Assembly: GCF_030122805.1 (NCBI RefSeq)
Contig: NZ_CP126080.1
Span: 1,431,001-1,495,000, forward strand
Direction of reading: 5' to 3'
Source of the DNA: Mesobacillus sp. AQ2
GTDB lineage: Bacteria; Bacillota; Bacilli; Bacillales; Cytobacillaceae
DNA: 64,000 nt
Shown here piece by piece: positions 10,641-60,066 of this stretch. The position numbers and the translations under genes are program-made. The notes beneath the pieces are model-generated. The model saw only the letters and a program-made list of their open reading frames with translations, was not told where the DNA came from and did not search any database. The stretch's first letter is position 1; each line of letters opens with the position of its first letter.

Positions 10641-10892
10641 TTCAAGCTATAAAATTGGAAAGTCGCTATATAAATCGAAAAGTCGCTATATAAAATTGAA
10701 AGTCGCTATATAAATCGAAAAGTCGCTATATAAAATTGAAAGTCGCTATATAAAATTGAAAGTCGCTATATAAAATTGAAAGTCGCTATATAAATTGAAA
10801 ACTCGCTATATAAAATTGAAAGTCGCTATAAAAATTGAAAACACTCACTATTTAAATTGAAAATTTCTCTATATAAATCGAAAACTCGCTAA
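10641..10892. repeat. 20-bp tandem repeat array (about 12 units)
   Basis: The unit AGTCGCTATATAAAATTGAA recurs with an exact 20-bp period at 10661, 10681, 10701, 10721, 10741, 10761, 10781, 10801 and 10821. Decayed units flank it (10641, and about 10841-10892). Some units end TCGAAA instead of ATTGAA. It fills most of the gap between the ywiC terminator and the second fnr. There are no spacers, so it is not CRISPR. No long open frame is carried by it. Confidence 0.95.
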
Positions 10893-35573: not shown

Positions 35574-36118
35574 GATCAGGATGGGGGGGAAGGGAGTGTC
35601 CCTTCCCTTTCAGATTTTAAGTGCCGCCAGTTACCGAGGCGTTTTCTTCCGCCCAATGAAGTCAAAGAACGACTTCAGTGGTCAGCCTTCCGTGGCACAC
35701 GATGTGCTAGAACCGCCAGTCACAGGACGTGGCGTTTTTAGGCGGGCAGCGCTTGTCGGGGCAGACCAAGGTGCTTGCGCTTTTCATTGTCCAGCTCCAG
35801 CGCCTTGCCCCTCGAGTCGCTTCGGTCCGCCCAATGAAGTCAAAGAACGACTTCAGTGGTCGGCCCTCCGTGGCACACGAGGTGCTAGACCCGCCAGCCA
35901 CAGGACGTGGCGTTTTTAGGCGGGCAGCGCTTGTCGGGGCAGACCAAGGCGCTTGCGCTTTTCATTGTCCAGCTCCAGCGCCTTGCCCCTCGAGACGCTT
36001 CGGTCCTGGCAATGAAGTCAAAGAGCGACTTCACTGCCAGGCCCTCCAGCGCTTGTCGGGGCAGATCAAGGCGCTTGCACTTTTCTTATAATCTCTTAAT
36101 TTTTAAAGGAGAATTGCC
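35574..36118. other. Gene-free insert inside the app operon
   Basis: Between appA and appB there is no credible gene. From about 35650 to 36086 it is filled by a tandemly repeated palindromic element. The open frames here repeat the same peptide in shifted frames and lack ribosome sites. A GGAG site before appB closes it. Confidence 0.85.
35651..36086. repeat. 178-bp tandem repeat of a palindromic intergenic element (2 full units plus a short third)
   Basis: Unit 1 begins at 35651 and unit 2 at 35829, with roughly ten differences in 178 bases. The next register point is 36007, where a shorter third copy lacks the central GTGGCACACGA to TTAGGCGGG block. Each copy has outer arms AGCGCCTTG and CAAGGCGCT with CCCC and GGGG next to them, and an inner TGAAGTC-GACTTCA hairpin. 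The end sequence GCTTGCGCTTTTC recurs at 10.9 kb. Confidence 0.9.
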
Positions 36119-44857: not shown

Positions 44858-45835
44858 CTATTTTTCGATCAGAGAGGTGAGGTCATAGACCCTCCCCTTT
44901 TTAGAGCCTGAGCAGGGCAGGTTGAGTGAAATCAAAAAAGACGAGGCGGATTTACTTTTTGATTTTGGCAACAATAAAAAATCAGAAAATTGGCTGAGTG
45001 TAATGGTGCTGCCATAGAGGAAGTAATAATCACTTAATGCAGGAATGTGGGCTGTTTTAGAAGAAGTTTGGCAAAGAGGGCAATACCAGCTGCCATAGAC
45101 TTTATCCATAGGAATGGCATGGCATTGGGGGCATTGGACCCCATTTTTCACATCATTGGGGTGGATTGAATATGTATCTAATATATTTGGTTTATGGGGA
45201 ACATGATTTTTCACCAGTTGTTTTGCTATTTTTTTGATCTCTTTTATAGAGGTAAGATCCTTTGGGTAACTTTTTTCTAAATCGCTAATCCTCGATATTA
45301 GGTGGGCAGCATGCACAACTCGAAAGTTACTGTAGGAGTTAGTTCCTTTGGATTTTATAATGGTTGAAGGCCTTGAAATGGCAACAAGATATTCGAGGTT
45401 TAATGCTGGCAGTTTATGTTCATCAAGCCACTGTGATAATAATCTGATATGTCTTTGTACCTGGGTGAAGGGATCACGGATTCCTTCTTCTTTTTCGTTA
45501 AAGATCCGTATGCACTGATTGAATTCATGGTCAAAAATAATTGTTCCGGCAATATTCTTGGAATCAATTATAAAGGAGACTTTGGGGGAAATCAGGAGGG
45601 AGTCGATTTGAAAGAAGTGGGCTCCTTGCTGTAACCTGAGGTCATTGATGATTAGGTAGTTATTAGCAAGACACGATAAATGGTAATCAAGTTCTTTTTC
45701 ACCTCTTATTCCCGCCAGTTTCTTTCTGTATTCCTCTTCAATTACGGGCAGCTTAGAGTGATTTACATTGAGCCGGCGCATTAAAGCCTCCTCAGCTTTC
45801 AATTTATAAGGTATGTCTCTGTCTTTATAAAACAA
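44858..45835 (-). CDS. NERD-domain protein with zinc ribbon
   Basis: 325 residues. Residues about 40-165 are a NERD (nuclease-related) domain: GEKELDYHL, YLIINDLRL, FQIDSLLISPKVSFIIDSKN with the D-X..-D/E-X-K-like pattern of the restriction-endonuclease fold. Near residue 230 lies a zinc ribbon, CPQC-X..-CPLC. NERD proteins are thought to act on DNA, often plasmid- or phage-related, but the role here is unknown. Start taken as TTG 45835, with GGAG eight bases upstream; GTG 45844 and ATG 45841 are nearly inside the site. Not part of this neighbourhood in B. subtilis, so probably an accessory insertion. Confidence 0.8.
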   Translation of the reverse strand: MFYKDRDIPYKLKAEEALMRRLNVNHSKLPVIEEEYRKKLAGIRGEKELDYHLSCLANNYLIINDLRLQQGAHFFQIDSLLISPKVSFIIDSKNIAGTIIFDHEFNQCIRIFNEKEEGIRDPFTQVQRHIRLLSQWLDEHKLPALNLEYLVAISRPSTIIKSKGTNSYSNFRVVHAAHLISRISDLEKSYPKDLTSIKEIKKIAKQLVKNHVPHKPNILDTYSIHPNDVKNGVQCPQCHAIPMDKVYGSWYCPLCQTSSKTAHIPALSDYYFLYGSTITLSQFSDFLLLPKSKSKSASSFLISLNLPCSGSKKGRVYDLTSLIEK

Positions 45836-46139
45836 ATTCATCACTCCTTTTCTTATTTTATAGGAGATAATTCTCCAAAATGCTGTTAACTCCTATTGTT
45901 TATTGTGATGATTTTTTGACAAAGAAGGGATAATCCTGAAAATCTTGATATATTCCTGAGTTTGACCCGGATATTCCTTAGAATCTGATTTTATTCCTTA
46001 GAATTAGTCAGATATTCCTTAAAACCTTAATATATTCCTAAATCCCAAATATGAAGTAACATAAAGTACTTCGTAACCAACTTCCTTCATATATATGATA
46101 AAAATGGACAGGCAGGGGTGAGTAGGTTGCATGATCTGA
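45836..46139. other. Intergenic stretch upstream of the small membrane protein
   Basis: About 300 bases without a gene. It holds the NERD gene ribosome site and the five-unit 20-21-bp repeat at 45950-46045. Nothing else could be named. Confidence 0.5.
45950..46045. repeat. Five degenerate 20-21-bp tandem repeats with ATTCCT core
   Basis: ATTCCT recurs at 45952, 45973, 45993, 46014 and 46034, giving spacings of 21, 20, 21 and 20 bases. Around it the context is TATTCCTTAGAATCTGAT or a decayed form. The sequence differs from the 20-bp array at 10.6 kb, but the period is nearly the same. Confidence 0.75.
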
Positions 46140-48333: not shown

Positions 48334-48612
48334 AAGAACGCAAAAAAGGACCATTCGTACCCTACTTGTAGGGACGAATGGTCCGTGTTGCCACCCTAAT
48401 TACTCACGAATGAGTCACTCTGCCCATGCTTTATGCTGCATGGCTTCCTTTAACGCAGGATTTACGCCTGGATCTACTTACTGCTTAGTTTCGAACCAGA
48501 AGCTCGGAAGTCCATTCCAAATGCCAGGCTGTTTGTTTCCACCGACCACAAACTCTCTGAGAAGCCTTAAACAAATGTACTATTCTTCTTCATTGCTTTT
48601 AAAGATTTATTA
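48334..48612 (-). ncRNA. Tryptophan T-box leader of trpS
   Basis: Read on the minus strand, the leader has the T-box sequence GGGTGGCAACACGG (48383-48396). It is followed by a terminator stem GGACCATTCGT and its complement (48348-48384) with a T run at 48347-48342. Upstream, the specifier loop GGAATGGAC presents a TGG (Trp) codon at 48514-48512. Uncharged tRNA-Trp pairing at both sites would favour the antiterminator and so trpS expression. Confidence 0.93.
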
Positions 48613-57983: not shown

Positions 57984-58379
57984 ATGGTCACTTTATACAC
58001 TTCACCAAGTTGTACTTCATGCAGAAAAGCAAAATCATGGCTTGAAGAACATGAAATTCCATACACTGAAAGAAACATATTTTCTGAGCCTTTATCGATT
58101 GATGAAATAAAGGAAATACTTCGAATGACCGAGGATGGAACGGATGAAATCATTTCAACTCGTTCGAAGACATTCCAAAAGTTAGATGTTAACCTGGAGA
58201 CAATGCCTTTACAGGAATTGTTCGAAGTAATCAAAGAAAACCCAGGCTTACTTCGCCGCCCGATCATAATCGACGAAAAGCGCCTGCAGGTTGGTTATAA
58301 TGAAGATGAAATCAGACGCTTCCTTCCGCGGAAAGTCCGCACTTTCCAATTGCGCGAAGCACAGCGCTTAGTCAATTAA
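57984..58379 (+). CDS. spx: Spx, thiol-stress transcription regulator
   Basis: 131 residues. ArsC-like fold with the redox switch C10-T-S-C13. Binds the alpha C-terminal domain of RNA polymerase and turns on thiol-stress genes, and is degraded by ClpXP. Sequence is near full family length and ends RLVN. ATG 57984, with AGGAG about 11 bases upstream. mecA lies 1 kb downstream, as in other bacilli. Confidence 0.96.
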
Positions 58380-58385
58380 ATTTAT

Positions 58386-58413
58386 TAAGCTCCCAATTTT
58401 GGGAGCTTTTTTT
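58386..58413 (+). terminator. spx terminator
   Basis: AGCTCCCAA and TTGGGAGCT around TT, followed by T6. Confidence 0.88.
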
Positions 58414-58439
58414 GTTTTGGGATTTTGTCTATTTCTACT

Positions 58440-58980
58440 CTTACTTTAGACAGCTTTTCTTTGTATTCCACTAAAGCTGTCTGAACTCTGGCTTACTTCG
58501 GACAGCTTTTCTTGGTTTGCCACGAAAGCTGTCCGAACTTTGGCTTACTTCGGACAGCTCTTCTTGGATTGCTACTAAAGCTGTCCGAACTTGGACCTAC
58601 TTCGGACAACTTTTCTTCGTTGTTCACTAAAGCTGTCCGTACTCTGGCTTACTTCGGACAGCTTTTCATTGTTTGCCAGTAAAGTTGTCTGAACCGAGAC
58701 TTACTTGGGACAGCTTTTCTTGGTTTTCCACCAAAGCTGTCCGAACTTGGACTTACTTCGGACAGCTTTTCAACGTTTGCCAGTAAAGCTGTCCGAACTT
58801 GGATTTACTTCGGACAGCTTTTCTTCGATTGTCACGAAAGCTGTCGGAACTTGGACTCCCTTCGGACAGCTTTTTTGGGTTTGCCACGAAAGCCGTCCCG
58901 AACTCTGGCTCACTTCAGACAGCTTTTCTTGGTTTTCCACCAAAGCTGTCCGAACCCAGGCTCACTTCAGACAGCAGGAC
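58440..58980. repeat. 52-bp hairpin tandem repeat array (10 full units and one half unit)
   Basis: GACAGC (one unit GACAAC) recurs at 58449, 58501, 58553, 58605, 58657, 58709, 58761, 58813, 58865, 58918 and 58970, so the period is 52 bp with a single 53. Every full unit carries GGACAGCTTT and, 15 bases on, AAAGCTGTCC, forming a 10-bp hairpin, then CGAACTTGGCTTACTTC as linker. Some changes in the arms keep G-T pairing. The last unit lacks its second arm. Confidence 0.97.
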
Positions 58981-59394
58981 AGTAGTAAACGGTCGATAAC
59001 CCAACAAAGAACGCCAATTGAAGATCGAACCTCGACTCCTTCATCAAAGACAGTCAGACAAATTGAAATCAAGCCAAGTTTCTGCTAAAATGTAAAGAAT
59101 ACTTTAATTTTATAGTTGCCTTTGTTTTGTGAAATTTCAATGGTATTAAACCAGTGAATTGCGCACAAAACTTGAAACAATAAGAAAAAAGCCTTTTATA
59201 AAAATGGGTGCATATTTTATTTCCAAAATGGCTGATGATAACATAAAATGAAAGTACAAGATTATTCTATTTACCTTCCTTTAATAAAAACTTGGTGATT
59301 CAGACTCATTTATTAAGGGTAAAAGATATGGACCAACTGCTTTTTGGGGGTATTTAGTCCCTTCAAATCTTTGCCTGGAAGGGAGAGAAAGCGA
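58981..59394. other. Gene-free stretch between the repeat array and mecA
   Basis: About 410 AT-rich bases. The mecA promoter must be here, but no clear -35/-10 pair was found. A GGGTAA at about 59317 lacks a matching GTTTAA. Nothing else seen. Confidence 0.5.
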
Positions 59395-60066
59395 ATGGAA
59401 ATCGAGCGCATTAATGAGAATACGGTAAAGTTCTACATTTCATATATGGACATAGAGGAACGCGGGTTTGACCGGGAAGAAATCTGGTATAACCGTGATC
59501 GCAGTGAGGAACTGTTCTGGGAGATGATGGATGAAGTCCATGCAGAAGAAGAGTTTACTGTTGAAGGTCCATTATGGATCCAGGTCCAGGCCCTGGAAAA
59601 AGGTCTGGAGGTATTGGTTACAAAGGCTCAATTGTCAAAGGATGGGCCGAAATTTGAACTGCCGCTTCCAAATGATAAAATGAAAGATATGCCAGTTGAT
59701 GAGCGAATCGAAGAGCTGCTTGACCATCAATTTAATCCAAAAGGATTTGATGATGAAGAGAGTTCGTTCGAGGATGATCTTGAATTCTTATTACTTTTTA
59801 AGGATTTCGAGGATGTCATCTCGCTATCAAAACGGCCGGGAATCGATAATATCAAAACAAGCTTGTATAGTTATTCTGACAAGTATTATTTATACATTGA
59901 ATTTCCTGAGCAAGATTTCGAGGATGAAGAGGAAATTGATAATATTCTAAGTGTCCTTCTCGAATATGGGCAGGAATCAAGCATGACGATTCATCGTCTT
60001 GATGAATATGGCAACAAGATTATCGACAATGATGTATTCAATGTCATAAGGAAGCATTTTTCCTGA
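59395..60066 (+). CDS. mecA: Adaptor protein MecA
   Basis: 223 residues. The N-terminal substrate-binding domain begins MEIERINENTVKFYISYMDIEERGF, and the C-terminal domain binds ClpC. MecA brings ComK and other proteins to ClpCP for breakdown and so restrains competence. An acidic linker of Glu/Asp joins the two. The start is ATG 59395 with AGGGAGAG before it; the upstream frame is not family sequence. Confidence 0.95.
   Translation: MEIERINENTVKFYISYMDIEERGFDREEIWYNRDRSEELFWEMMDEVHAEEEFTVEGPLWIQVQALEKGLEVLVTKAQLSKDGPKFELPLPNDKMKDMPVDERIEELLDHQFNPKGFDDEESSFEDDLEFLLLFKDFEDVISLSKRPGIDNIKTSLYSYSDKYYLYIEFPEQDFEDEEEIDNILSVLLEYGQESSMTIHRLDEYGNKIIDNDVFNVIRKHFS

Follow-up and report, generated by a model that had tools for sequence, protein, structure and literature searches.

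A 52-bp tandem array behind a presumed spx gene in Mesobacillus sp. AQ2 as a candidate dispersed satellite of a NERD-domain gene

The array and its surroundings

The stretch of DNA analysed here, which we call the window, comprises 64,000 nucleotides (positions 1431001-1495000) of the 4803959-bp chromosome of Mesobacillus sp. AQ2. Its subject is a 52-bp tandem array that lies between two genes named from their sequences, an upstream gene that we take to be spx and a downstream gene that is presumably the adaptor gene mecA (Table 1). Tandem Repeats Finder (TRF) assigns the array a period of 52, 10.3 copies and 80% matches. A scan for the anchor TGTC-N19-GACA finds 11 cores running from 58426 to 58973, and the steps between them comprise nine of 52 and one of 53, as stated in the original prediction, which had described a chain of hairpin units in 52-bp register. 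The array is real, but it begins about 14 bases before position 58440, where that prediction had placed its start. Likewise, inverted arms are present and the A-C mismatch described for the unit near 58605 is seen in the sequence, whereas the arms are longer than stated, at 13 bp instead of 10, and by eye an arm can pair with its left or its right neighbour, giving a loop of 11 or 15 bases instead of one fixed loop of 15. Because a 52-class repeat occurs in none of 190 control segments of 1 kb (TRF score 36), the array is far from what chance would produce.

A second strain of the species carries the same array. The flanks of the second strain are identical at 1949 of 1950 and 890 of 890 positions, the 1-bp insertion of the 53-bp step is absent, and 10 of the 11 differences in or around the array fall in one 53-bp tract, that is, one unit length. 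This strain-tract count, like the gap, core-scan and conserved-letter counts and the first scan for arm pairing, includes some arrays that were fetched twice, and among the entries counted are two named sets, one from G013 and one from a species that is the window's own or very close to it.

Table 1. Features of the window, with positions counted from its first letter
Feature	Position	Strand	Basis or score
Upstream gene, read as spx	57984..58379	+	Open reading frame (ORF) list; orthologous locus in 19/21 genus genomes searched
Intrinsic-terminator-like hairpin of the upstream gene	58387..58408	+	
First core TGTC-N19-GACA of the array, degenerate	58426..58452	+	Sequence and anchor scan
52-bp tandem array; nearest type, NERD-locus satellite at 1.548 Mb	58440..58975	+	
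Array unit: half-site AAAnCTGTCnnAA, 11-bp centre, inverted half-site TTnnGACAGnTTT, 15-bp link	within 58440..58975	+	
Stretch with the sole 53-bp step (1-bp insertion)	58894..58946	+	
Downstream gene, read as mecA; start codon uncertain	59344..60066	+	ORF list
Rfam Bacillaceae-1 RNA match	35872..35935	-	37.5 bits
T-box leader	48367..48602	-	136.8 bits

A NERD protein gene adjoins arrays of the 52-bp class

Which gene accompanies these arrays? The recurrent neighbour encodes a protein of about 302 residues with a PD-(D/E)XK-like NERD domain, a zinc ribbon and C-terminal helices. One such gene lies at 1.548 Mb on the same chromosome, about 58 kb from the window array. In its product the NERD domain spans residues 37-144, the zinc-ribbon cysteines lie at 218-238, and the C-terminal helices span 244-289. 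Pfam NERD (PF08378) matches this protein with an E-value of 2e-13 and 51.2 bits, compared with a curated value of 22.1, and it matches four relatives with 50-77 bits. In 56 sequences the NERD residues E42, K89 and Q117 are invariant, and D74 and D87 are nearly so. Structure matches are of the PD-(D/E)XK type and include the CRISPR-linked and restriction nucleases Can2, Card1 and McrBC; the comparison barely covers the part after residue 183, and we claim no fold there. Judged by its conserved residues and fold, the partner is likely a nuclease. The zinc ribbon gave a weak PDB sequence match (E 0.14), which was not used.

The same structure matches are what speaks for a role in defence or self-recognition, in which the host's own arrays would restrain a nuclease, by holding or inhibiting it, and the nuclease would attack DNA without such arrays. 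However, the matches may reflect just the common fold, and PADLOC returned no convincing family: one protein gave a weak partial Cas10 match (E 8e-4) and a second gave none. We consider a defence role improbable.

The linkage of gene and array is close and one-sided. A 52-class array lies within 1 kb 3' of the gene at 62 of 70 NERD loci, at 61 of them starting within 200 bp, whereas only 3 of the 70 have such an array 5' and none of the 190 control segments holds one. All 70 loci lie in genomes with core pairs; 40 were chosen by us from the match list and 30 automatically, and 27 of the latter 30 have the 3' array. Among the eight negative loci, L214 and L223 stop at contig ends within 140 bp, L236 has an array about 0.9 kb off, L257 has two units, L265 has a degenerate array, and L268 has an array 1.6 kb off behind a partial gene match, leaving L272 and L276 without an array. 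The linkage spans many families of the order. In the window's own genome all six close NERD members have an array, and the six arrays are of six satellite types. Similarly, a close NERD member (E <= 1e-60) is found in 66 of 69 genomes that have TGTC-type core pairs and in 79 of 328 that do not; the Fisher and binomial tests applied to such counts ignore relatedness. One of these six NERD genes (3372856-3373757; L284, L288) has stops in its last third and keeps a 14-copy 52-bp array behind it.

That the NERD gene was not found in plasmid and phage collections suggests that the NERD-array pair resides on chromosomes. Searches with the array among plasmids and with its pattern among viral contigs gave no match either.

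Array type follows the protein

We next consider the type of each array, which varies with the type of its NERD protein. At 62 loci, protein identity and array similarity correlate with a rho of 0.36, and between genera with a rho of 0.34; in each case none of 500 permutations reaches the observed value. Frames with stops, frames below 270 residues and loci with less than 200 bases of 3' sequence had been dropped from this set. When arrays were swapped among the paralogues of one genome, none of 1000 swaps reached 0.363, the best giving 0.353. Array type follows the protein beyond the effect of the genome, by a modest margin. The window array scores 26.1 against the satellite of the 1.548-Mb gene, 11.5 against the next of the six types and 9.0 when shuffled. 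The array type of another NERD gene, at 0.790 Mb, occurs at five further places (three weak matches), on strands that by eye differ by replichore.

Arrays across the genome, the genus and the order

A search of the unit against the genome and its relatives, proposed with the original prediction, returned related arrays at 24 other loci of the same chromosome and across the order. The resulting 25 loci, the window included, were collected by similarity to the window array and are therefore biased to its type; because the genome holds 535 core pairs, more arrays exist than these. All 25 are intergenic by a simple ORF prediction, whose script drops ORFs lying mostly inside an array; the array at L019 is overlapped early by a 74-residue ORF that is probably spurious. 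The flanking genes are co-directional at 15 loci, convergent at six and divergent at four (under a stricter ORF threshold, 16, 6 and 4 of 26). At L018 (1738 kb) and L014 (3510 kb) the arrays stand between neighbouring housekeeping-type genes and split probable gene clusters; by eye, we take the neighbours to be pbpB/spoVD and clpX/lonB, respectively. Two other ORF clusters, an ABC-type ATPase group and a permease-like group, recur at 11 loci each (by eye).

Occupancy of the spx locus differs within the genus. The array is present there in 3 of 19 genomes, namely the two strains of the window's species and the nearest genome, G013; the remaining 16 have no array at this locus, which in one of them stops at a contig end. 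A match to the window array is missing from two genomes of the genus, G008 and G014, although G014 has 63 tandem core pairs.

Over the order as a whole, 44 of 397 genomes, from 25 of 135 genera, contain the pattern TGTCYGAA-N8-14-TTCRGACA, some of them with a single match. The tandem core TGTC-N19-GACA-N25-TGTC-N19-GACA occurs in 69 of these genomes and 30 of the genera, and the tabulated backward control of this pattern has a match in G013 only. Outside the genus, tandem core pairs are especially numerous in G342 (436) and G101 (454).

The original prediction had found no named class for the array, yet it is a member of a described one. Subirana and Messeguer (PMC8161180) surveyed 176 Bacillus genomes and describe, in about 30% of the species, tandem 52-nt repeats with a constant unit of 51-53, non-coding, in several sequence families per genome and with turnover between strains. 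The window array has a unit of this length in at least four copies, and the arrays of its genome are intergenic. The signal AAAGCTGTC, given for B. alkalitelluris in Table 2 of PMC8161180, is shared. Furthermore, several families coexist in the genome, in the form of six types beside six NERD genes, the half-site and its inverse recur as short signals, and conservation is partial, both at the spx locus and in the unit-length difference between strains. The consensus units of PMC8161180 include TGTCTGAA..GTTCGGACAGCTTT for B. alkalitelluris and CTTCGGAC..CTGTCCGAA for B. oceanisediminis, and we find TGTC-N19-GACA in six consensus units from five species in its Table 1 (one with GACT). A table of the same paper lists repeats common to B. 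selenatarsenatis, B. boroniphilus and B. subterraneus (PMC8161180). The first and last of these species are now named Mesobacillus, and so is B. boroniphilus.

As far as the part consulted goes, PMC8161180 reports no sequence conservation and names no partner protein; as explanations it offers small RNAs or a polymer of protein along the DNA, and it sees no sign of a Cas-like partner. What the present arrays add to that description is a common core, a NERD gene linked to them, array types cognate to the protein and a polarity relative to replication. The common core, the enzyme link and the polarity are new as far as the literature was searched, and among that literature a search on NERD with tandem repeats returned no publication linking the two.

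Half-sites rather than a hairpin

What is conserved in the unit? Over 65 array entries the conserved letters are AAAnCTGTCnnAA, 11 bp and the inverse TTnnGACAGnTTT, with a pyrimidine-rich link; within this, the half-site pattern AAAnCTGTC..AA is conserved with degenerate positions between. Although gaps of 8 to 12 were permitted, 693 of 720 cores have an inner gap of 11. The step is exactly 52 in 583 of 608 cases, counted over 64 distinct arrays whose neighbouring units share 83.8% identity, so length changes are rare beside 16% substitution. This disparity and the presence of arrays across the order bear out the earlier suggestion of selection rather than simple slippage.

The rigidity of the unit also argues against a neutral satellite, that is, arrays spread by slippage or recombination whose link to NERD reflects shared history only. 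Turnover by locus and by strain is what a neutral satellite would show. However, slippage would hardly leave length changes so rare beside substitutions, the linkage is one-sided to one gene family across many families of the order, the same core pair recurs in 30 of 135 genera, and arrays follow the paralogue. We give this explanation a very slim chance.

Does the inverted symmetry of the unit reflect a hairpin? The original prediction had taken G-T pairs between the arms as a sign of selected structure and had proposed covariation as a check. Pairing was counted at positions 4-9 after arrays seen twice were removed (20 of 153 entries dropped); the first scan for arm pairing had selected units by TGTC and GACA, tolerating one mismatch, which makes positions 0-3 uninformative. 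The paired cells number 1164 against 1143 with shuffled arms in the window's genome, 2966 against 2927 in the genus and 1091 against 1082 in other genera, and the observed number is reached by 0, 0 and 15 of 500 shuffles, respectively. Pairing thus exceeds that of shuffled arms by 1-2%, but the arms are nearly independent within arrays, and the G-T pairs are a weak sign of selection. The dependence of the arms is small but real in two of the sets; shared ancestry of the units can cause it, and pairing may make a small contribution. Position 4 is unpaired in 23% of the units of the window's genome, 59% of those of the genus and 20% of those of other genera, and near the foot of the stem C stands opposite C in 467 of 685 units and G opposite C in 108. 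Between lineages the inner arms change while by eye their complementarity is kept (TGTCCTTCAT/ATGAAGGACA, TGTCCAGTAGA/TCTACTGGACA, TGTCCTTTTGA/TTCAAAAGGACA), which would be expected of a symmetric protein site and of a hairpin alike. A selected hairpin is thus poorly supported. Double-stranded half-sites of a symmetric protein fit better, because the spacing is rigid, the arms are nearly independent, and a variable position pair lies between two conserved blocks.

These data bear directly on an RNA function, in which transcribed chains of hairpins would act as small RNAs, sponges or terminators. The predicted RNA folding of the first 261 array bases is strong on both strands (z -10.9 and -8.5), but any inverted-repeat array would fold so. 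Pairing above that of the shuffles and complementary lineage-specific arms are likewise what a hairpin would predict, and the part of PMC8625621 used here describes transcripts of 52-nt repeats in B. coagulans. Hairpin loops, however, would not call for spacings that are constant almost to the single base, nor does an RNA function sit easily with nearly independent arms, with C opposite C at one stem position in most units, or with arrays in all gene arrangements; Rfam at its gathering score gave no match on the array. We regard an RNA function as quite improbable. We reject an array of terminators, because arrays sit in co-directional, convergent and divergent settings.

Replication polarity

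The arrays have a preferred orientation with respect to replication. Among 66 scorable array entries from six Mesobacillus genomes, 64 place the pyrimidine-rich strand on one and the same side of the assumed replication fork; the window array and L013 break the rule. The set holds 70 entries, four of them ambiguous. Because some entries are fragments of a single array and many loci have orthologues in other species, 64 of 66 is no count of independent events. Origins were assumed at coordinate 0 (one genome being re-oriented by spx), with gene directions alone as support. Pyrimidines make up on average 68% of the links on that strand, compared with 56% in neighbouring intergenic DNA. When the arrays are grouped by orthologous locus, a rough grouping that lumps 27 arrays in one group, 24 of 26 groups follow the polarity, as do all 11 of the purely convergent or divergent groups. 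By eye, the arrays at 12 of 15 co-directional sites run opposite to their flanking genes. We prefer replication to gene direction as the explanation, because the polarity also holds where the flanking genes are convergent or divergent, in 20 of 21 scorable arrays, with one more ambiguous.

A serious rival is a structural role in the nucleoid, in which the NERD protein would coat the phased arrays and organise or segregate the chromosome, its nuclease fold serving to bind or being rarely active. The polarity fits such a role, as do the half-site pattern, the 52-bp spacing near five helical turns and the failure to find the NERD gene in plasmid and phage collections; the protein polymer on DNA proposed in the part of PMC8161180 used here, with the candidate protein unnamed, points the same way. 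Yet the sites are not kept, since the spx locus is occupied in so few genomes, two of them of one species. Furthermore, the catalytic-type residues are conserved, and G008 and G014 lack a match to the window array, though G014 has its tandem core pairs. Overall, we find a nucleoid role rather unlikely.

A proposed mechanism

On balance, we favor the view that the window array is a dispersed satellite copy whose master lies 3' of the 1.548-Mb NERD gene, and that the NERD protein binds and cuts while repair spreads the units. We propose that the master copy would be the satellite directly 3' of that gene. Each unit would offer a pair of inverted double-stranded half-sites to the C-terminal part of the protein, and a unit of about five helical turns would keep successive sites on one face of the DNA. 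The NERD domain may then nick or cut at bound units. Finally, repair at replication forks would copy units as wholes, either inside one array, from one array to another, or to intergenic sites not occupied before. We lean towards a resident selfish element, rather than a benefit to the cell such as chromosome organisation, as the nature of the NERD-array pair.

A second NERD subfamily and 20-22-bp repeats

The window itself contains a NERD gene of a second, more distant subfamily (44858-45844, minus strand; NERD 66.8 bits), and TRF finds 41- and 19-bp repeats directly 5' of it (45928-46052). Among 30 second-subfamily loci chosen automatically, repeats of 20-22 bp or multiples thereof lie 5' in 17 and solely 3' in four; nine have no repeats of this class on either side. 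The same class occurs in 1 of the 190 control segments. Its size is that of the other constant-length class, of 20-21 bp, in the part of PMC8161180 used here.

More tentatively, we suggest that Bacillus relatives may harbour a chromosomal two-part system in which a NERD nuclease copies its own constant-length satellite, whole units at a time, to intergenic sites in a fixed fork orientation, a second subfamily owning the 20-21-bp class. If so, both constant-length satellite classes of the group would be products of one enzyme family. Constant-length bacterial satellites, which have been described without function or partner, thereby gain a first candidate partner. The system would also add a route to dispersed repeats besides the transposase-linked ones, and it would provide a ready set of protein-site pairs, as paralogues of one genome adjoin different units.

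Elsewhere in the window, a 20-bp tandem array (GCTATATAAATTGAAAAGTC, 12.2 copies) at 10646-10891 looks like the one on the 5' side of another second-subfamily NERD gene of the chromosome (1008015-1008995, L287).

Comparison with other repeat systems

Repetitive extragenic palindromes (REP) and the bacterial interspersed mosaic elements (BIME) are dispersed intergenic palindromes whose spread is ascribed to a DNA-processing enzyme, the gene of which adjoins a master copy. The present arrays resemble REP/BIME and the REP-associated tyrosine transposases (RAYT) in that dispersed intergenic inverted repeats have a candidate enzyme beside the proposed master copy. They differ in forming long 52-bp tandem arrays and in being accompanied by a PD-(D/E)XK-type protein, not a Y1 enzyme. 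A link to Y1 transposases is without support: the genome has seven Y1 genes, and the 1-kb control segments from their loci hold no 52-class array. Similarly, the foot of the window type is AAAnCTGTC and contains neither GTAG nor CGTC, the feet of REP palindromes in the part of PMC3733652 used here.

CRISPR arrays likewise combine regular repeats with a neighbouring nuclease-like gene, but unique spacers are lacking here, and the similarity of neighbouring units extends over whole units, links included. Small serine resolvases recognise the half-site TGTCYNNTA. As a likeness that serves as a lead only, their sites also have inverted TGTC at the outer ends and a length of about 27-28 bp; the core here differs in its odd length and its lack of a central 2-bp crossover, and the neighbouring gene encodes no recombinase.

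Finally, a 178-bp repeat of 2.2 copies at 35648-36047 of the window overlaps the Rfam Bacillaceae-1 RNA match.
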